A stretch of 64,000 nt of DNA from positions 744,001 through 808,000 of the forward strand of contig SOPS01000001.1 of NCBI GenBank assembly GCA_005239175.1, written 5' to 3'. The position numbers and the translations under genes are program-made. Each line of letters begins with the position of its first letter. The stretch's first letter is position 1. Below, one piece after another: positions 15,488 to 64,000 of the stretch. The notes under the pieces were generated by a model. The model made no database searches, was not told the DNA's origin, and saw nothing but the letters and a program-made list of their open reading frames with translations. This stretch comes from a halophilic archaeon SHRA6. Lineage in GTDB: Archaea > Halobacteriota > Halobacteria > Halobacteriales > Haloferacaceae.

Positions 15488-15996
15488 TTAGAAATAATTG
15501 CTCACTTTTGGAATTGAGAGTTGGTTGAGAGCTGTATCAATGGCTGTCGTCAGCTCATCAAGTGAGTCAAAGAACCGGTTGCTCAGAGACGCTTGAAGCT
15601 GTCTCCAGCACTCTTCGACAGGATTCAGCTCCGGCGAATACGATGGTAACGTCACGAAGGTGAGGTCGTCACGGGCCGCCAGGTCCGTGACGGCCGACGC
15701 TTGGAAGTATGGCGCTCCATCTAGAACAACAATCAAATCATCTTCGAATTCTTTGCATAATGCTAAAATGAAATGTTTTGCATGATCGGCGGTGACGTAC
15801 TCGGTGAATCGGGAGAAAAAGCGATCACCGTTCTCGGTGATCGCGCCCAAAAGACATGTCCAGTCGCGTTGCCCAGAGAGTTCGACGGAAGGCCGCGTGC
15901 CGCGCGGAAACCACGCGGCACGCGGCTCAACTTGGACGGATTTCTTGGTTTGGTCGATACAGACTACGGTGGCGTCCATCTCCCGCCGCTTTTTTT
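15488..15996 (-). CDS. IS630-family transposase, catalytic part (second frame)
   Basis: This frame carries the DDE catalytic domain: first Asp in VVCIDQTKK, second Asp in LIVVLDGAPYF, and the Glu of SPELNPVEECWRQL. It also has the family motif YVTADHAKHF and ends KVSNYF ten bases inside the element end. An internal ATG exists at 15979. In full-length IS630 proteins, however, the two parts are continuous, and the frame upstream of that ATG (KKRRE) joins smoothly to the first ORF across a run of seven A. I therefore treat it as the downstream product of a -1 frameshift. Confidence 0.85.
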
Positions 15997-16503
15997 GAGC
16001 TCTTCGTGGAACGCTTCTTGCTCGTTTTTATCGGATTCGGCGGCTGAACGGCGTGGTTTCTGATAGCTAAATCCCGCTTCTTTCAGCAACCGCCGACAAC
16101 TCGGGATTGAATACTCGACGCCGTAGGTTTCTTCGAGAAACTCTTGGGCAAGCGCCGGCGTCCACGCCGGTGCGTCGATCCCGATCTCACTGGGTGGTTC
16201 GTGAACAGTTTCTTCAAATTCTTCTTGCTGTGTTTCTGAGAGTTTTCGCTTTCTCCCAGTTCGTTTATCATCAGACACGGCTTGCTCAAGCGACTCGTCA
16301 GTGTCGAGTCGCTTGAGCCAGCTGTAGATCGTCCGTCGCTGAACGTCGTACCACTCGGCTAGCTCGGTCTGGGTTACACCGTTCTTGTACGCGATAGCCG
16401 CTAAGAGTCGTTGTGTCGGCTTCTTTGCATCCACGTTGTCAAGAGCGTTTTGCAATTCCTCGACAGAGATCTCGTCGAGATGATTCACTATCTCTTGCAA
16501 CAA
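15964..16503 (-). CDS. IS630-family transposase, N-terminal DNA-binding part (first frame)
   Basis: The product has 179 residues. A first helix-turn-helix (TQRLLAAIAYKNGVTQTELA then WYDVQRRTIYSWLKRLD) and a second winged region (FLEETYGVEYSIPSCRRLL) form the paired-like DNA-binding half of IS630 transposases, which recognises the terminal inverted repeats. It ends KKSGGRWTPP in zero frame just after the A7 run. Alone it could act as an inhibitor or repressor of transposition, as is common for truncated transposases. Confidence 0.85.
   Translation of the reverse strand: MLQEIVNHLDEISVEELQNALDNVDAKKPTQRLLAAIAYKNGVTQTELAEWYDVQRRTIYSWLKRLDTDESLEQAVSDDKRTGRKRKLSETQQEEFEETVHEPPSEIGIDAPAWTPALAQEFLEETYGVEYSIPSCRRLLKEAGFSYQKPRRSAAESDKNEQEAFHEELKKSGGRWTPP
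15990..15996 (-). promoter_or_regulatory. A7 slippery site, probable -1 programmed frameshift
   Basis: On the transcribed strand the sequence is CTC-AAA-AAA-AGC. A -1 slip on the seven A residues switches from EELKKSGGRW to EELKKKRREMDATVVC. This joins the two transposase frames in register with the family. Such shifts are known in other IS630 elements. Confidence 0.65.
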
Positions 16504-17652: not shown

Positions 17653-18537
17653 TCACAATGACTCGACATGTGCCGACCAAGGGATAGAATCAACGTGAGA
17701 ACTTATCTCGATTTCTGCCTCCCAGAGCGGTTCCGTCTCTTTGTCTCCGTCCTCAAAATCATAGCTGTAGCACAGTTCGATGACTTCACGGGAGTAGTCT
17801 TCGGCAATCTGTTCAGGTATTTCCAGATTCGGCTGAGAGAATTTGAAAACCACATTCTCTTCGCCCGGATGTAGGTAGTCCCCCCGACCTGTATATCCAT
17901 TATACTCATCCCCATATCGCTTCGCCCGTCTACGTCCGATTATCCTTCCATCGTCTCTGATTCGGATAACGCCTTTAATATCCTCTGCAGGGGCATCCCC
18001 TATATTGGAAAGCTTGAAATCAAAATCTCCATCGGGATAGATATGAGAATCTTCACAAGTGAGATAGGGGCGTTTTCCTGCTGGCCCTATTCTCTTATCG
18101 TCCCAACTATCGGTGATTGTCTTGTATACCTCCTCTGCGGCGGATTCTACGTCTTTAGGACCGTCCACAACGACTGCTCTAAGGTCGGATAGCGGCGCAC
18201 TAAATTCTCGAACTGCTTCAGCCTCGACATCTAACCAGACTGGAATAATAACATCGTCTTCTTCATAGACATTCCTGCTCGTGAACCCACGAAGTTCTCT
18301 TTTCGTCCACTCTTTGTCAAAGAATGAGTCAGAGAGAACAACAACACCCTTGCTAGACTTTGAGATTCCACTATCGATTGACTGTTGTAAGCTACTTCCA
18401 GGGACTATCTCCCAATCATCAAGCCAAATCTGGAGCCCCTTTTGATGAAGGGATTCAGCTAGAGGTTTCACGAAATCAGCTTTGTTCTCACTAGAATGGC
18501 AGATGAAAGCATCGTATTCGGGATTCTCGTTCGCCAT
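17653..18537 (-). CDS. TIR-domain protein with C-terminal Ig-like region
   Basis: The protein has 294 residues from the ATG at 18537 (MANENPEYDAFICHSSENK). The TIR domain fills residues about 8-150. It has YDAFICHSSENKADFV (box 1), LQIWLDDWEIVPGSSLQQSI, and KGVVVLSDSFFDKEWTKREL, whose Glu fits the catalytic residue of NAD-hydrolysing TIR proteins. The rest (about 165-294) is a beta-rich, Ig-like domain (DFKLSNIGDAPAEDIKGVI) that could sense a ligand or partner. Proteins of this kind act as abortive-infection effectors that degrade NAD+. A longer in-frame start at 18636 would add 33 residues across the promoter and was rejected. It heads a run with the zinc-ribbon and PD-(D/E)XK genes. Confidence 0.85.
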   Translation of the reverse strand: MANENPEYDAFICHSSENKADFVKPLAESLHQKGLQIWLDDWEIVPGSSLQQSIDSGISKSSKGVVVLSDSFFDKEWTKRELRGFTSRNVYEEDDVIIPVWLDVEAEAVREFSAPLSDLRAVVVDGPKDVESAAEEVYKTITDSWDDKRIGPAGKRPYLTCEDSHIYPDGDFDFKLSNIGDAPAEDIKGVIRIRDDGRIIGRRRAKRYGDEYNGYTGRGDYLHPGEENVVFKFSQPNLEIPEQIAEDYSREVIELCYSYDFEDGDKETEPLWEAEIEISSHVDSIPWSAHVESL

Positions 18538-18561
18538 CTCTACTACATCCTGTTTTCTGAC

Positions 18562-18573
18562 AAATAATAAATA
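18562..18573 (-). promoter_or_regulatory. TATA element for the TIR operon
   Basis: The minus strand reads TATTTATTATTT, 25-36 bases before the ATG at 18537. It supports that start and a leaderless transcript. The divergent DUF429 gene starts 97 bases further right. Confidence 0.55.
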
Positions 18574-18669
18574 CCCAGAACTGGCGTCTCTTAACGAGAT
18601 AGGAATGGACTTTGAACCAGCTGGTAGAGTCCTCAAGAGTTACTTTGCCTTCTACGATACTATCACCAT

Positions 18670-19425
18670 ATGAGCGAGTACGTTGGTGTCGACTGGGCAT
18701 CTAAGGGCTGGTTCGCTATCCATCTGTCTGAAACAAGTGAATCTGGAATGGGCTTCTATCCCTCGATTTTTAATCTTTGGCACCACCATAAGGATGCGGA
18801 GCGAATACTCATTGATATCCCTGTTGGGCTGTCTTCAAACAGGAAGCGAAAGTGCGATATCGAAGCCAAGGAAGTTCTCGGCACAGTAAGAGGTAATAGC
18901 GTGTTTTATACCCCCACACGCAAGGGCGTCGGAGCGCAGAACATCAAGGAGGCAAAACAAGCCCAAGAAAATCTGGACTTCAGCGTACAGAATCAAGCAT
19001 GGGCTATCGTTCCTCGAATCCAAGAAGTAGACGAGTTCTTAGAGATGTTCAGAGAAGAGATAGGCAACACAGATATCAGGGAAACTCATCCCGAGATTTG
19101 CTTTTGGGCTCTCAACGATGGAGAACCCATGACGTACGGGAAGAAGACAGAGGAAGGAATTGAAGAGCGACTCGGCTTACTCTCGAACCATCTTACTGAT
19201 GCCCGTGGTCTCTATGAGGATGCTGTGGAGACGTTCACAGAGCCCGAGTGGGCTCCAGTAATCGGGAAAAGTGGACGGGATGACATTTTGGATGCGATGG
19301 TCGCAGCACTCACCGCCAGGGAGTGCGGAGAGAATCCATCTCGGCTTCCGAAAAAGTCCGACCCGGGATACGATGATGTCCGGGGACGAGAGATGGAGAT
19401 AGTGTTTTGGCCTGATATCGACTAG
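18670..19425 (+). CDS. DUF429 family protein (RNase H-like fold)
   Basis: The protein has 251 residues. DUF429 motifs are present: MSEYVGVDWASKGW at the N-terminus (first Asp), ILIDIPVGLSSNRKRKCDIE (second Asp and the Arg-x-Cys-Asp), VFYTPTRKGV, the Gln-rich SVQNQAWAIVPRIQEVDEF, RETHPEICFWALNDG, GIEERLGLL, and a C-terminal Asp pair in GRDDILDAMVAA. The acidic residues are placed like those of RNase H-fold nucleases, but biochemical activity is not established for the family. It is divergent from the TIR gene. Its stop overlaps by four bases the stop of the next, opposite gene. Base composition is AT-richer than the core. Confidence 0.85.
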   Translation: MSEYVGVDWASKGWFAIHLSETSESGMGFYPSIFNLWHHHKDAERILIDIPVGLSSNRKRKCDIEAKEVLGTVRGNSVFYTPTRKGVGAQNIKEAKQAQENLDFSVQNQAWAIVPRIQEVDEFLEMFREEIGNTDIRETHPEICFWALNDGEPMTYGKKTEEGIEERLGLLSNHLTDARGLYEDAVETFTEPEWAPVIGKSGRDDILDAMVAALTARECGENPSRLPKKSDPGYDDVRGREMEIVFWPDID

Positions 19426-20144
19426 CTTGGGATACTCCGTTCTCGTGCGCTTTTGGGACACTCTCGTACCTGTTCGAGGTCATGCTGGTCCTCGATATTC
19501 CCGGCTAAGGTGAGTAATTCTCTTCCTCGTAGTTCAAGCCATGTCGTCCCGAGGTGACTCCGCTCCGCCTCAGTTGCAGGTATCCAATAACAGTCCCCGA
19601 TGAATTCTTTGCTCCCCTTAGACGCGAACGCGAATGCTGTCGTCTCTTCCGGTATTGAGGTCAACGCCTCCTGAGCAGCAATCAGATACTTGGTCCCCAA
19701 TGCGACGAAGATCAAGTCGTAACCTTCGGCAAAGATTTGCCGGAGGTCTTGAGGAACATTCTTTTCCCGACTGACGGCGGCTACCAACTCGTTGTTGGTC
19801 ATTTTTTCTATATCTAGTCCGAATCTCTCCGCTCGTTCCCGAACCTGCTTGATTTCGTTAAACGTGCATTCGTAGGAGGGAATATCTGTCCTAGCAGGGA
19901 GGACACCAAACCCGGCAGAAATGATACACCAATCAACATTGGCGAACTCCGAAAGCTGTTGTACGGCTGATTCGATATGCTCGTGCTCGCGTCCTGTGTA
20001 CATCTCAGCCGCCGATGTCACAGCATCTGGATACTCCCTCAGTAACTCAGCCTGCTCCCTCGAATCTATCTCTTCGGGACCGATTACGGCGTCAAATCTC
20101 TTCGTTCCGGAACAAGGTGAGATAACGAGTACATCCAATCCCAT
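19422..20144 (-). CDS. YaaA/DUF6884-like protein
   Basis: This 240-residue soluble protein has the signature of the DUF6884/YaaA-like fold: VISPCSGTKRF at the N-terminus, a helix AAEMYTGREHEHIESAVQQL, then CIISAGFGVLPARTDIPSYE. Related domains occur beside 7-deazaguanine DNA-modification and other nucleic-acid processing genes, but the reaction here is unknown. The C-terminal half (LIFVALGTKYLIAAQEAL, FAFASKGSKEF) is beta-alpha. It converges with DUF429 (four-base overlap of stops) and diverges from the GIY-YIG-like gene. Confidence 0.65.
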   Translation of the reverse strand: MGLDVLVISPCSGTKRFDAVIGPEEIDSREQAELLREYPDAVTSAAEMYTGREHEHIESAVQQLSEFANVDWCIISAGFGVLPARTDIPSYECTFNEIKQVRERAERFGLDIEKMTNNELVAAVSREKNVPQDLRQIFAEGYDLIFVALGTKYLIAAQEALTSIPEETTAFAFASKGSKEFIGDCYWIPATEAERSHLGTTWLELRGRELLTLAGNIEDQHDLEQVRECPKSARERSIPS

Positions 20145-20210
20145 TGTCTATTCTTGTTCTGAATGATTACTCAGAGAATCAAACTCTTTGTGTGCGTACC
20201 GGTGTAGCAT

Positions 20211-20936
20211 ATGCGAAGAACAACGATGACACGACGCGAGGATATCGATCGACTCTACAGACTCTTTGAAGACTTAGAACAGACTGTCGGCGGGAAACAG
20301 AAGCTCAAGGACTGCACTGGCTACATGGATTGGCCCAACCGTGGCGTCTACATTTTCTTTGCTTCGGACGAATACCGAGAGTCTGGCGACCAGCTTCGAG
20401 TAACTCGTATCGGGACCCATGCAGTCTCTAGGGCAAGCGGTACCTCCCTCTGGGATCGACTCAGAACACACCGCGGAGCACAACGCGGAACCTACGAAAG
20501 CGGCGGGAACCATCGAGGCTCTGTCTTCCGGAAACGAGTTGGCGAGGCATTTGTCGAACGCGACGACCGACATGATGAGTATCCGTATTGGGGCGAGGGA
20601 TCGAGTGCAAAGCGCGAACGTCGACTCGATGAACTTGAGATGAAGCGGCGAGTAAGCGACTATCTCCGGGACCTGCCGTTCCTCTGGCTGAACGTCGACG
20701 ACGAACCAAGCGCCGAGAGCCAACGAGCCTACATTGAACAAAACACGATTGCACTCCTCAGTAACTACCAGCGAGGTGCCGTTGATATCCGCTCAGATGA
20801 TTGGCTCGGAAAACACAGCCGAACTAAGAAAATCTGCGAATCCGGTTTATGGAATGTGAATCACGTCGATGAAGACTACAATCCCGAATTCCTTGATGGT
20901 TTGAGTGAGGCTATCGAGAATACGGAACCTGTGTAG
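20211..20936 (+). CDS. GIY-YIG-like nuclease domain protein
   Basis: The protein has 241 residues. The first motif is RGVYIFFASDEYRES, followed by LRVTRIGTHAVS and SLWDRLRTHRG, then GNHRGSVFRKRVGEAF. A C-terminal helix contains AYIEQNTIALLSNY. This order (GIY-like strand, conserved Arg/His, late Glu-Asn) matches a divergent GIY-YIG endonuclease family common in restriction neighbourhoods. A start at 20226 (MTRRED) is equally plausible. The GmrSD-like gene follows in the same direction after 59 bases, but with its own TATA-like element, so the pair may be functionally linked rather than strictly co-transcribed. Confidence 0.7.
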   Translation: MRRTTMTRREDIDRLYRLFEDLEQTVGGKQKLKDCTGYMDWPNRGVYIFFASDEYRESGDQLRVTRIGTHAVSRASGTSLWDRLRTHRGAQRGTYESGGNHRGSVFRKRVGEAFVERDDRHDEYPYWGEGSSAKRERRLDELEMKRRVSDYLRDLPFLWLNVDDEPSAESQRAYIEQNTIALLSNYQRGAVDIRSDDWLGKHSRTKKICESGLWNVNHVDEDYNPEFLDGLSEAIENTEPV

Positions 20937-20995
20937 CCGAATCGATACTCTTCAACGGGAGTATTTTAGTATCTGGTCACACCAGTGTCGTGACA

Positions 20996-22837
20996 ATGAG
21001 TTTCCAATCTAAAACTATCGCCAATGCTCTTCAGGAACTCAATACGGCGACCTTTGTCCCGGCGATTCAACGAGAATTTGTCTGGACCGATGAACAGATC
21101 ATCCAACTCTTCGATTCCATCCTACGAGACTACCCAATCGGGTCACTCCTCTTTTGGCGCGTTCGCGGTGACCTCGCACAAGAGCAAATCAAGTATAAAT
21201 TCGTTCAGCACTACGTTACTGACCCTGTCCATCCAGAGAATCTAGGTAACGTCCACCACCGTAATCCTCAGGTCGAAGACTACGAGGATGTCCCCAACGG
21301 AATTCAGTTAGTCCTTGATGGTCAACAGCGCCTTACCGCGCTCTATATCGGACTAAAGGGTACACTGACCACAAAGCAGAAACATCGCCACAGGACGAAT
21401 CCGAACGCGTGGGACCGAAAACAGCTCTATCTCAATGTTCTCTCCGACCCCAACAAGGTTAGCGACGACGACCTCAAGATGCGCTATGAGTTCGAATTTA
21501 AAACTGACCCCGAGATGTCCGAGGACGAATACTGGTACCGGGCTAAGGACATCCTCGAACTTAACGAATACGACGGTATCCACGACATTACTGAAGAGAT
21601 TGATGCTGAGCTTTCCGAGCAAGATATCGACCATCCTTCGCAGTGGAAGTTCATCAATAAGAATCTCACCTCCCTCTATCGCGCTGTTCACGAACGCAGT
21701 CTCATTAACTACGACGAGAAAGAAGAGGACGACTTGGGGAAGGTCCTCGATATGTTCATTCGGACAAACCGCGGAGGGACTCAGCTCAGTACCTCAGAAG
21801 TGCTGCTCTCCATCGCAACTGCTCAATGGGCAAATGGGAATGATGTAGATGCCATCAATGCTCGAGAAGAAATCACAGAGTTCATTGACGACCTCAATCG
21901 GCGTCGACAGGATGCCGGATTTAGCTTCGATATCGACTTTGCGCTTCGGAATCTCCTAATGTGTTCCGACTTGCCAACCTCTGAATCGGTTCGCCATTTC
22001 AATCAGTCGAACCTCCAGAAGATGAAGCAGACTTGGACAGACGACGGTAAGATGCAGCAGGCGGTACGAAATGCCGTCGATCTCGTCGTTGATTTCGGTC
22101 TGGACTCTCGGAGTCTCACAAGTCGGAACGCGCTCGTTCCGATTGCGTATTTCTTCTATGTCAACAACAACCCGGACCTCGAATGGAATAGCGGCCACGA
22201 GGAGATCTCGGCTAGAGAGGAGGTCCACCAGTGGCTCTGTACGTCGATTCTTAATGGGACATTCTCTGTTGGTCGAGGAGCCATCGAACGAGCACGGTCG
22301 CTGATGCAGACTGCACCTGCTATGACGTTCCCCGGGGATGAGATTCACCGCGAACTCCGAAGCGATGGTCGAGTCTCTAGGTTCGACCGTGACTTACTGG
22401 AACTGCAACTCGATGGCCTTGAGTACGGGAGTCGAAAGACCTTCTCGTTCCTCTCACTACTCTACCACCCTGGACCAGCTCGAAGCAACACTCGCCACGA
22501 TGTCGACCATATCTTCCCGCAGGACCAGTTCGATACGGAAACGCTAGTTCGGGATTACGGGCTAGACCCTGTTGAGGCGGAACGATATGCGGAACTCAAG
22601 GACCGAGTCGGTAATCTCCAGTTGCTTAATGAGAATGAGAATCGCTCGAAAGGCGGCCAGTCATTCCTCGATTGGCTCGAATCTCAGGATGATTCTTACT
22701 TTGAGAAGCACCATATCCCGCAAGACGAGGGCCTCTACAGGTTAGAGAAATTCCCCGAGTTCATTGAAAAGCGCGAAGAACTAATCATCGAAGACCTACT
22801 TGATAAATTCGGTCCCAAGGAGAGCCAGGACGCGTAA
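20996..22837 (+). CDS. GmrSD-type modification-dependent nuclease (DUF262 + DUF1524)
   Basis: The protein has 613 residues. The N-terminal DUF262 (ParB/sulfiredoxin-like NTPase) shows FVPAIQREFVWTDEQI, YPIGSLLFW and VLDGQQRLTALYIGL (the D-G-Q-Q-R motif), and a FIRTNRGGTQLSTSEVLLSI block. The C-terminal DUF1524 His-Me nuclease shows DVDHIFPQDQF and RVGNLQLLNENENRSK. Fused GmrSD enzymes restrict phage DNA carrying modified bases, and relatives serve in phosphorothioate-linked defence. All key motifs are present, so it is likely active. A GTG at 20990 is two codons upstream. A TATA-like TATTTTAGTA lies near 20962-20971. Confidence 0.9.
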   Translation: MSFQSKTIANALQELNTATFVPAIQREFVWTDEQIIQLFDSILRDYPIGSLLFWRVRGDLAQEQIKYKFVQHYVTDPVHPENLGNVHHRNPQVEDYEDVPNGIQLVLDGQQRLTALYIGLKGTLTTKQKHRHRTNPNAWDRKQLYLNVLSDPNKVSDDDLKMRYEFEFKTDPEMSEDEYWYRAKDILELNEYDGIHDITEEIDAELSEQDIDHPSQWKFINKNLTSLYRAVHERSLINYDEKEEDDLGKVLDMFIRTNRGGTQLSTSEVLLSIATAQWANGNDVDAINAREEITEFIDDLNRRRQDAGFSFDIDFALRNLLMCSDLPTSESVRHFNQSNLQKMKQTWTDDGKMQQAVRNAVDLVVDFGLDSRSLTSRNALVPIAYFFYVNNNPDLEWNSGHEEISAREEVHQWLCTSILNGTFSVGRGAIERARSLMQTAPAMTFPGDEIHRELRSDGRVSRFDRDLLELQLDGLEYGSRKTFSFLSLLYHPGPARSNTRHDVDHIFPQDQFDTETLVRDYGLDPVEAERYAELKDRVGNLQLLNENENRSKGGQSFLDWLESQDDSYFEKHHIPQDEGLYRLEKFPEFIEKREELIIEDLLDKFGPKESQDA

Positions 22838-23125: not shown

Positions 23126-23500
23126 TCAAACTGATAGAGATGCTTCTCGCCCCGTAGCGGTTGGAGGAGTGAGGGCCGCGTTCTTCAGTCGGATGCTGAT
23201 ATACGTGATGAGCGCTAGGATAACCGGAAGCGCCACGCCGGTCGTTGCAAAGACGGTGCTGAGAAGTCCGGAAATGATGATTTCCTTGCTCATTTGTCGA
23301 AGGATATTGAGGACGGTACTCTCCAAACCGCCGTTATGGCCCCCATCAGGACTTGAACCTGCAATACCAGGATTCCCGTCTATTGTCCCCGACGCACCGT
23401 GCTTAGCCAAACATTCGTTTTGTCCAAAATAAATCTGTCCCACTTCACAACAAAATGTCTGAGCGGGATTATGCGAGATGGGCTCTGTTGAAATCCTCAA
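23126..23500 (-). CDS. Uncertain small membrane protein
   Basis: A minus-strand frame ends ...TGREASLSV and contains one clear hydrophobic segment (LSTVFATTGVALPVILALIT) after a Gly/Pro-rich region (GIAGSSPDGGHNGG). Its only upstream start lies within the terminal repeat of the element at 23481, so its true 5' end may have been cut by that insertion. MSKEIIISG in the middle of the frame is an alternative start that would leave a 55-residue single-span peptide. No family recognised. Confidence 0.3.
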   Translation of the reverse strand: MRISTEPISHNPAQTFCCEVGQIYFGQNECLAKHGASGTIDGNPGIAGSSPDGGHNGGLESTVLNILRQMSKEIIISGLLSTVFATTGVALPVILALITYISIRLKNAALTPPTATGREASLSV

Positions 23501-24400
23501 TACCTGACAGAAAGCACGTGCTGAACTTAGGGGATGTAGTCAGCACGGGGACTGCGTTATTTTCACAAAATGAATCCTGAATTAGCCGGTAGAATAAGCC
23601 TGCGTATCGGTTATGGAAGTCCCATGGTTCACTACAGCTTGGGATATCTTTCATACGTATTATATCTGCCCAAGACTTATTTAGTGGGTCCACATACTCA
23701 TGAGGGAGGTATCAAGATCACCGATGTCCAAAGACGAAAAACAGAAACGAAAACGAATAACGACCACTGTCAGTCCAAAAACCAAGATGGACCTCAAAGA
23801 GGGAGAAGGGCCGATGGGCGTACAGATCGATAGACTGGTTAAAGACGAGTCTGAGATGGATTTCCACATCATCAATACAAATGCGCAACATCTCGATGAC
23901 GACGGTACGGAAATCTACCAAGCAGGGAAAGTCGTAACATATGGCTCCGAGAAATTCGAAAAGAAGCTGAAAAACATCAATCCAGGTGATGGAATTTTCT
24001 CTTATGTTAGCAAGGGAGAGGTAAATTATTCAGGAGGATTCAAAGCGTTCGGCATTGCTCGCGCACCATACGACGGGGTTCCAACTGAAGGCAATGCAAG
24101 GATTTACCCGAATGACAGTCACGAATATGAGTATCACGTCCCCGTTACTTGGCTAGCAGTCCTTCTGAACAATCGGACAGTTACAGTTTCCGAGAAACGC
24201 CGATTTGTCGGTGAACAACCCACGGACACGAAAATAAAGGCCCGTGATCAAGACCTTCGTCAGGGGTGCCGGCTACTTGCTGAGGTTATGCTCGGGAGAT
24301 CCGGCTATCCACTATCCTGGTAGCCACCTGTAAAATGGATTCTCTGTATTGACCACAACCGAGTCATAATATATCACTTATTGAGGATTTCAACAGAGCC
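23481..24400. mobile_element. 920-bp element with 22-bp perfect terminal inverted repeats and no transposase
   Basis: The left end 23481-23502 begins GGCTCTGTTGAAATCCTCAA. The right end 24379-24400 is its exact reverse complement over 22 bases. Sequences of this form terminate several haloarchaeal IS and MITE families, and related ends occur in this window at 57522, 60209 and 63673. The only gene inside is the EVE/PUA-like gene; no transposase is present. The bases flanking the ends do not show a clear target duplication, so it may be old or formed by recombination between two single ends. Confidence 0.6.
23724..24323 (+). CDS. EVE/PUA-like domain protein carried inside the inverted-repeat element
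   Basis: The protein has 199 residues from the ATG at 23724. The basic N-terminus (MSKDEKQKRKRITTTVSPKT) precedes an EVE-like beta-barrel. It includes INPGDGIFSYVSKGEVNYSG, GFKAFGIARAPYDGVPTEG and YEYHVPVTWLAVLL, where the conserved W closes the pocket. EVE and related PUA-like domains bind modified bases and often act as the reader of modification-dependent restriction enzymes. There is no attached nuclease here, so it may be a stand-alone reader or antirestriction protein. Its position between perfect inverted repeats makes it transposon cargo. A longer in-frame start at 23700 is less likely. Confidence 0.6.
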   Translation: MSKDEKQKRKRITTTVSPKTKMDLKEGEGPMGVQIDRLVKDESEMDFHIINTNAQHLDDDGTEIYQAGKVVTYGSEKFEKKLKNINPGDGIFSYVSKGEVNYSGGFKAFGIARAPYDGVPTEGNARIYPNDSHEYEYHVPVTWLAVLLNNRTVTVSEKRRFVGEQPTDTKIKARDQDLRQGCRLLAEVMLGRSGYPLSW

Positions 24401-25197
24401 TGAACCAGCTAAATGAAATCCGCAGCCGGGTGGAAGAGACAAAGTTAGCAAAACAAAGAGCAGACAATATCGCAGAGATGCTTCCAAGAGTAATTATCTC
24501 CAAATATATCCCGGAAGATGGGGGTTCTAATGATTGGAAAAAGGTAACTGCAGATGATGTCTGTGAGTATATTCAGAGAGGAAAACAAACGGAGTATTCA
24601 GAAGATGGTGAAGTCAACATCATCAATCAGCGATGTATCTATTGGGATGGTTTACTTCTCTCAAATTCTCGAACACTCTCAGAAAACCAACGGCCGAAAT
24701 GGCAAGATTACCGATATCTTCAGGCTGGCGACGTAGTTCTTAACTCTACTGGAGTTGGTACTGTTGGTAGAGCCCAAATTTTCCCTGGAAATGACGAGCC
24801 GTATGTTGTAGATGGTCACGTTACGGTAATGAGACCATCTAAACAAATCCGGCCAGAGTTTCTTTGGTACTTCTTATGGTCGGAGGGAGGGCAGAAGCAA
24901 ATAGATGCCACCGGTAGTACTGGCCAAATTGAATTACGTAAGAAAGATGTACTCAACTTAGATGTTCCTCTTCCTCCACTTGACGAACAAGACGAGATAA
25001 TCAAGAAGCTTGAATCATATCAGCGGCAGATAAATAACATCCAATCTGCTTGTGATGAGAGGCACGAAGTAGTTGACAAACTGTCACGCTCTATCTTAAA
25101 CAAGGCATTCAAGGGACAAATGACTCATTCTACTTATAATAAATCCTTGGAGAAGAAACCGGAGCAGAGGAAACTAGAACAGTTCAAGTCGTCCTAA
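24400..25197 (+). pseudogene. hsdS: Type I restriction specificity subunit HsdS, C-terminal half only
   Basis: The frame opens inside the transposon end and runs to 25197, and the first usable start is the GTG at 24430. It contains a central conserved helix (NEIRSRVEETKLAKQRADNI), one complete target-recognition domain (VTADDVCEYIQRGKQTEYSE, then YRYLQAGDVVLNSTGVGTVG and LWYFLWSEGGQKQI), and the C-terminal conserved helix (VPLPPLDEQDEIIKKLESYQ). Normal HsdS has two recognition domains, about 400 residues; the first half is missing exactly at the element boundary. No hsdM or hsdR is in the window. A half-HsdS can work as a dimer, but loss by insertion is simpler. Very AT-rich. Confidence 0.8.
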
Positions 25198-62863: not shown

Positions 62864-63442
62864 TCACTGGATCTTTGCTTTCGGGAGTCTCGTTCGAATG
62901 TGCCGCCTAGTAGGCGTTTTTATACCGCTGGTTTGTCCGTAGAGAAGGTAGCCAAAACCCCCAACAGATAGTAACACAAAAATGAAAAAAGCGGGCAGTT
63001 GGGGGAAGCCCGTCACAGCTTGAATGGGCCCACTTCTGATTCCGACTGTAGCGTTGTATGTCGCGTGGATTATCGCAGCGATGATGAGTCCGTTGACGAT
63101 GATCGGATCGCGGTTCCCTGGGTTGAATTTTGCTAACCCGAGGTAGTAGCCCACAAACGACGAATAGATGACATGCCCGGACCCGGCTAACGCGCGGGTC
63201 GCAGTGAGATCACCGCCGATACCGATCGAGGGCACCCTCAGAAGACTGGCACCACCGACGGCGAGGAAGAGTAATAGTGCAAGCAGGACCACGAGAAGCT
63301 GGCCGGTACGAACCGCCACTCGATAGACCGCGACCGAGGCGCTATTGAGGAGAGACCGCCGTTCCCACGATGAGACCCCATAGAAATCCCGCTCGTCGTC
63401 CGCAGCTTCGACAGGACCCGTATCGTCGTCTATGTCTTGCAT
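62864..63442 (-). CDS. PrsW-family-like membrane protein missing the EExxK part
   Basis: The protein has 192 residues with about four hydrophobic segments. The C-terminal half contains two of the three catalytic blocks of PrsW intramembrane proteases: GSGHVIYSSFVGYYLGLAKF and ALIIAA-like IIAAIIHATYNATVG (His then Asn). The first block, an EExxK helix, is absent; instead residues 1-45 are a hydrophilic acidic start. Normal PrsW proteins have it about 60-90 residues before the first His. Thus the gene is either N-terminally truncated with a new start or the function was lost. The call is based on the second half only. Confidence 0.6.
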   Translation of the reverse strand: MQDIDDDTGPVEAADDERDFYGVSSWERRSLLNSASVAVYRVAVRTGQLLVVLLALLLFLAVGGASLLRVPSIGIGGDLTATRALAGSGHVIYSSFVGYYLGLAKFNPGNRDPIIVNGLIIAAIIHATYNATVGIRSGPIQAVTGFPQLPAFFIFVLLSVGGFGYLLYGQTSGIKTPTRRHIRTRLPKAKIQ

Positions 63443-64000
63443 GCTGTTTCTGTCAGGGGGAAGTTCGCCCCTCCAGCATAGCCCGGAGCGAACGTATCAA
63501 TCGACGCTTGATTGCCCGGTAGCTGGGTCTACTCTCTGGATGTACGTTAAACAACAGTGTCTCTCAGTTAATCATTGTGAGGCCTAGAGTGACAGGATGA
63601 GGTCGTCGTGGCGAACTCATCCTCTGTATTCAGCAGTCGATACCTATCAGTCTCAGAGGATTTCAACAGAGCCATCGTTCACAATCTGGAGAGAAGCCTC
63701 GCCATTGCATACGAAGGGGGCGAATGTCTGTGATTCCGAGAGAAACGGACTGCTGAATATAGAGTGTGTATGCAGCAGAGCAGAATACTGGTAAAGGGAA
63801 CTGTAGCTAATAGACTGGATCATCTCTGCGCGAAGAACACACCAGTTTCGTCACATACGACCTCGACCTGCTCGACGGCACAACAGGCCGAAAGGAAACG
63901 AAACACTGCAAATAGCCGAATATCACGCTGCCGGAGGCGGATAGACAGCCCAACGTGGAGTGGTCAGTTCACCTGTCCCGACAGCTCTGCCCCCGCTTTG
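63443..64000. other. Right-edge intergenic with transposon-like end
   Basis: The sequence GAGGATTTCAACAGAGCC at 63656-63673 is the same right-hand end as at 24383-24400. Around 63617-63636 is the subterminal CTCTGTATTCAGCA motif. From about 63830 to the end a plus-strand frame has possible coding character (TSFVTYDLDLLDGTTG) but is broken by a stop. No gene is supported. Confidence 0.4.
63656..63673 (+). repeat. 18-bp transposon-like end, same as at 24383-24400
   Basis: An exact match to the right end of the 23481-24400 element over 18 bases. Its left partner, if any, is beyond the window or lost. Confidence 0.65.

Follow-up and report, generated by a model that had tools for sequence, protein, structure and literature searches.

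How does a single gene come to lie between two matching transposon ends when no transposase is found between them? This question is raised by a 920-bp unit (23481-24400) in the window, a stretch of 64,000 nucleotides of contig SOPS01000001.1 from the halophilic archaeon SHRA6, whose genome comprises 3.36 Mb in five contigs. The arms of the unit are 27 nt each and 93% complementary, their outer 22 nt pairing perfectly, and they enclose one plausible gene (Table 1): the 22-bp perfect inverted repeat around a single gene, described in the original prediction, is borne out. The lack of a transposase also stands, as none was recognisable with Pfam and NCBIfam models in any of the ORFs inside the unit. 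We propose, with a probability of about 0.78, that the unit represents an IS5-type mobile insertion cassette (mic), in which a passenger gene lies between transposon ends and a transposase is lacking.

Table 1. Features of the cassette locus in SHRA6 (columns: feature; position in the window; strand; basis or remark).
Left inverted-repeat arm	23481..23507	+	Outer 22 nt match right arm perfectly
Right inverted-repeat arm	24374..24400	-	Pairs with left arm
Left end module, class B (cluster 2), about 127 bp	23481..23607	+	Separate BLAST matches (query 1-127); clustering
Right end module, class A (cluster 3), about 57 bp	24344..24400	-	Separate BLAST matches (query 864-920); clustering
Cargo gene, 207 aa: N-terminal ribbon-helix-helix-like part and EVE/YTH-like domain	23700..24323	+	ORF; alignments; model and Foldseek; CcdA and AAA/EVE fusions of relatives
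hsdS remnant, second recognition half only	24403..25197	+	Pfam Methylase_S; full-length relatives compared

The 17-bp tip of the ends, GGCTCTGTTGAAATCCT, occurs 41 times in SHRA6 at up to two mismatches, and its reversed pattern, the control, not once; this census combines pattern searches with extracted stretches, and outside those stretches it counts only ends with up to two mismatches. Fifteen pairs of tips converge at distances of up to 2.2 kb, where the mean expectation from random placement is 0.25 and none of 5000 trials gave more than 3. They enclose 344-2038 bp, and an 8-bp target duplication (at least 7 of 8 bases) accompanies 9 of the 15, compared with 0 of 210 mismatched flank pairs. 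The check named in the original prediction, for further copies of the 920-bp unit with target duplications, found no second copy of the whole unit in the SHRA6 genome; the worry that the two ends might never occur together elsewhere is dispelled by the 14 other pairs, nine of which have target duplications.

What these pairs enclose is diverse. A candidate gene is present in 14 of the 15 units, the remaining one (344 bp) being without a gene. The contents include a GNAT-like protein, a 91-aa ORF, the window's EVE-like gene, UspA, a DUF7387-HicA pair, YihY/BrkB, an LLM-class oxidoreductase, an alpha/beta hydrolase, unknown-function proteins of 281, 395, 269 and 248 aa, an HNH protein with a phosphoesterase, and an aldo-keto-reductase-like with a methyltransferase-like protein, several of these names being weak or below-cut-off model matches. 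A protein search for transposases gave no match, remnants included, inside any of the 15 SHRA6 units. Since the EVE gene is only one among many cargoes, the cassette family is not specific to defence. The suggestion of a non-autonomous element that moves a defence or counter-defence reader is therefore upheld for the inverted-repeat ends, the EVE-like cargo and the missing transposase, but not for a dedication of the family to defence. SHRA6 also contains orphan ends, which have no partner tip. One of these is a perfect tip in right orientation at position 63673 of the window, whose partner tip was not found; inside it, the sequence is almost the same as in the GNAT cassette at C1:80896, and a 192-aa ORF rich in hydrophobic residues (62865-63443) adjoins it.

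The 23 bases inside the tip cluster into three classes, and the 15 units pair A with B in eight cases (the window's included), A with D in three and two cluster-2 ends in four. Genes in the eight A/B units run towards either end, so the contents were not loaded in one fixed orientation. Both end modules of the window unit were found again by BLAST at further sites in SHRA6 and in other genomes; a match to some part of the 920-bp unit occurs in 198 of the 392 genomes from the class, and nearly all the matches listed among them cover an end module only. Plasmids and phages yielded no whole-unit copy, haloarchaeal plasmids giving only end modules.

In relatives, the same tips as those of the SHRA6 units flank a 273-aa IS5-family transposase in many genomes (NF033579, 218 bits for a cut-off of 140, and a Pfam DDE_Tnp_1 match). 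In most autonomous copies, 52 bp separate its start codon from one of the tips, and many copies have perfect 8-bp duplications. In several of them (L117, L195 and L200) the end far from the transposase start resembles class D; inside the tip, the ends of the autonomous copies examined differ from classes A and B. Transposases about 66-70% identical have tips mostly like GGCCTTGTTGAAACCC and those about 40-47% identical have tips like GGCTCTGGTGAATCGC, so that tip and transposase clade vary together. The full-length IS with the same ends that was predicted to act in trans thus exists in relatives but was not found in SHRA6, where a protein search detected no cognate transposase; the IS5 relatives present there are all distant, the closest having 42% identity and tips GGCTCTGTAGTTTCG. 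An autonomous partner within SHRA6 was rejected on this ground, this copy being the sole distant IS5 element there with recognisable ends. Short of the arrival of a partner, or of one having escaped detection, the cassettes are therefore stranded in SHRA6.

Movement of a cassette can be traced in other genomes. At L195, an IS with the same tips is interrupted by a cassette of 1353 bp, which has B/A-type ends, contains a 307-aa gene but no transposase, and is flanked on both sides by ATTCGAAC; at L117, in a different genome, the same IS lacks the cassette and has a single ATTCGAAC, and the flanks are 98.8-99.2% identical to those of L195. By sequence comparison, this pair of filled and empty sites demonstrates movement of a cassette with these end classes, other than the window's, as one unit and with an 8-bp duplication, by whichever transposase. 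More transposase-less units with perfect duplications occur at L102, L115, L116 and L164 (a viral-collection record). A further locus, L109, was considered as a MITE end moving jointly with an IS end and dropped: its inner flanks are mutual reverse complements, which indicates an intramolecular rearrangement. Two larger arrangements were also observed. In genome G113, a 3540-bp unit (L106, 214-3753) has similar ends and is flanked on either side by the 8 bp GAAAATCC; its three genes are of unknown function and gave no PADLOC match. In the Halobacterium salinarum plasmid pKBTZ03_58 (L166, 820-3800), two perfect tips, with the target duplication absent, enclose a relative of the SHRA6 YihY cassette gene and an inorganic phosphate transporter gene.

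The window copy has a more complicated history. Its target duplication is absent, 2 of 8 flanking bases agreeing (GCGAGATG and TGAACCAG), and its own movement as a unit is therefore presumed. Some 210 N-terminal codons of the adjoining hsdS are missing, and the break coincides with the right tip of the unit. The copy appears to have arrived by transposition into hsdS; given that it has no target duplication and adjoins an hsdS without its first half, a later deletion or recombination would have removed the left target flank together with that first half. The nearest relative of the unit is found in G066, a genome of another genus, with 86% identity in protein and 88% in DNA over query positions 171-920, and a Ka/Ks of 0.31 between the two copies indicates purifying selection on the cargo gene. 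In G066, too, the gene lies between two ends, both decayed, but their order is opposite to that in the window, with class A on the left and class B on the right; with the end classes swapped around the same gene, the unit as such is not conserved, which implies either two separate loadings of the gene or an exchange of the ends. The EVE-like gene region of G066 occurs in two copies (L070 1-18530, L071 1471-20000), the copies lying 36,470 bp apart and being 100% identical over at least 18.5 kb, either through a recent large duplication or as an assembly artefact. No such ends were found within about 3 kb of the cargo relatives in Natrarchaeobius (75%), Halorientalis (61%) and Natronorubrum (40%). 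The gene does occur without the ends in other haloarchaea, at other loci; what the original prediction had counted against itself was such an occurrence at the same locus.

The surroundings of the unit have features of their own. Upstream of the cassette, a defence-like neighbourhood (17653-22837) contains two genes of note: one is TIR-like, with PADLOC matches of ThsB type and to PDC-S66, and the other is of GmrSD type, matched by Pfam GmrSD_N/C and by PADLOC HEC-05. The sequence GGTATTGCAGGTTCAAGTCCTGATGGGGGCCA (23338-23370, minus strand) resembles the T-arm and 3' end of a tRNA and may be what is left of an integration site; tRNA gene prediction found none in the window, and the sequence is single-copy in SHRA6 at up to two mismatches over 20 bases. 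Two adjacent ORFs on the minus strand (15488-16503) resemble, as judged by eye, a split IS630-type transposase.

The cargo protein itself has no significant match in Pfam, NCBIfam or the PDB sequences, and the Pfam EVE model does not match it up to E = 1. Searches with the single protein found no homologues in the genome collection and viral contigs, an alignment query being needed. An AlphaFold model from five sequences has a mean pLDDT of 58.5, rising to 70-76 in parts of the core, and is thus of medium confidence. Its top Foldseek matches are 1wmm, 2hd9, 2p5d, 2eve and Mmi1 YTH (E 2.7e-4 to 2e-3, TM-score 0.4-0.6); in terms of proteins, the EVE-type PH1033, MJECL36 and 2eve come first and YTH domains and THYN1 next, so that the medium-confidence model is like the EVE/YTH fold of the PUA superfamily. 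The EVE/PUA-like assignment thus draws on structures ranked first by Foldseek but has no counterpart among Pfam, NCBIfam or PDB-sequence matches. Among relatives, the cargo domain is fused to McrB-like AAA_5 proteins with a GPPGTGKT motif (L138, L146), a cargo-type domain shares one polypeptide with a Pfam EVE domain (L149), and Pfam CcdA matches the N-terminus above cut-off in two proteins. Going by fold and fusions only, the cargo is probably a DNA-binding regulator or a sensor reading modified bases, and the candidate modified-DNA readers would thereby gain a protein that is both CcdA-like and EVE-like.

Could the 920 bp never have moved as a unit, two independent solo ends (MITE remnants) having come to surround a resident gene by chance? 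The window copy has neither a target duplication nor a second copy elsewhere, the ends around the same gene in G066 are class-swapped and SHRA6 has orphan ends, all as such an origin would have it. We nevertheless consider it unlikely: convergent pairing is far above chance (15 pairs against 0.25), the hsdS break falls at the right tip, and the closest gene relatives outside G066 sit in other contexts without ends. Alternatively, the unit might be a decayed transporter IS, a relic in which a transposase once lay beside the passenger gene and was lost by internal deletion, rather than a cassette mobilised in trans. Autonomous copies with extra genes are known, for example L107 (two further genes and a perfect duplication) and L114, and SHRA6 retains no cognate transposase. 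However, a protein search detects a transposase remnant in none of the 14 gene-holding units, their contents vary from unit to unit and take either orientation relative to the ends, and the L195/L117 pair presents a transposase-less unit that is present or absent with an intact duplication; decay of this kind is thus an improbable account as well.

The family of the ends might also have been misjudged. Both the tip sequence and the 8-bp duplication are traits that we take to resemble those of the IS6 and IS1595 families, yet the IS6 transposases of SHRA6 sit between other ends, IS1595 is absent from this genome and, in many genomes, the transposase found with these tips belongs to the IS5 family. 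Both families were rejected as the source of the ends, and an IS6- or IS1595-type element now seems highly implausible.

Returning to the mic of IS5 type, we infer that such cassettes are mobilised in trans. An IS sharing these tips would, whenever the cell harbours one, supply an IS5-family transposase; this enzyme would recognise the 17-bp tip and a subterminal motif and move the unit, transposition making the 8-bp target duplication. The same transposase would act on A- and B-class ends alike, and insertion of the window copy into hsdS would have been followed by the deletion or recombination on its left. On a larger scale, and much more tentatively, Halobacteria might keep a wide, integrase-free cassette economy, in which IS5-type ends take up arbitrary genes in either orientation and transposases come and go, shuffling the units between chromosomes, plasmids and proviruses. 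If this were true, gene content would be traded one or a few genes per step, the cargo kinds being stress, toxin-antitoxin, transport, redox and defence-like. Should the pattern hold, IS annotation based on transposases misses a route of single-gene exchange among haloarchaea, and the pair of filled and empty sites provides a direct way to test that route.

In a literature search with most subscription journals outside its range, we found neither a description of gene-carrying IS5-type cassettes in haloarchaea nor an account of many-cargo cassettes in archaea, and the papers quoting the tip sequence belonged to unrelated fields and shared a 12-base part of it; the haloarchaeal gene-carrying IS5-type cassettes are thus provisionally regarded as new. 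One account reports EVE proteins near type I restriction genes in archaea (PMC7641849). The cargo resembles the proteins described there in its EVE-like fold, the McrB-like AAA fusions of its relatives and a type I restriction gene nearby, but differs in falling below Pfam EVE detection and in lying between transposon ends; its CcdA-like N-terminus finds no mention in the accessible part of that source. The MITEs of Haloquadratum have inverted ends related to IS, target duplications and no transposase; most of them are non-coding and shorter than about 520 bp, and an ORF is present in one type, which is ISH2-like (PMC3119063), whereas the SHRA6 units are mostly longer and have recognisable genes. 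With haloarchaeal IS5-family elements the SHRA6 units share the 17-bp tips and the 8-bp duplication; the window unit differs from them in having no transposase and, inside the tips, in its sequence, as far as the autonomous copies examined are concerned. The closest parallel is the mic, defined by a passenger gene that lies, unaccompanied by a transposase, between the two inverted repeats of an IS, target duplication being usual and not obligatory, as exemplified by MIC231 of Bacillus cereus and the qnrD mic of Proteeae (PMC3913671). The mics that we found described are bacterial and mostly single cases, several with antibiotic-resistance genes. IS inverted repeats at both ends, a passenger gene and no transposase are common to mics and the window unit; the usual target duplication is missing at the window copy but present at 9 of the 15 SHRA6 pairs. 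Mics of the MIC231 type have IS231 (IS4 family) ends and are found in bacteria, whereas here the tips are those of the IS5 family and the hosts are Halobacteria, and, unlike mics, the SHRA6 units bring many different cargoes together in one genome.
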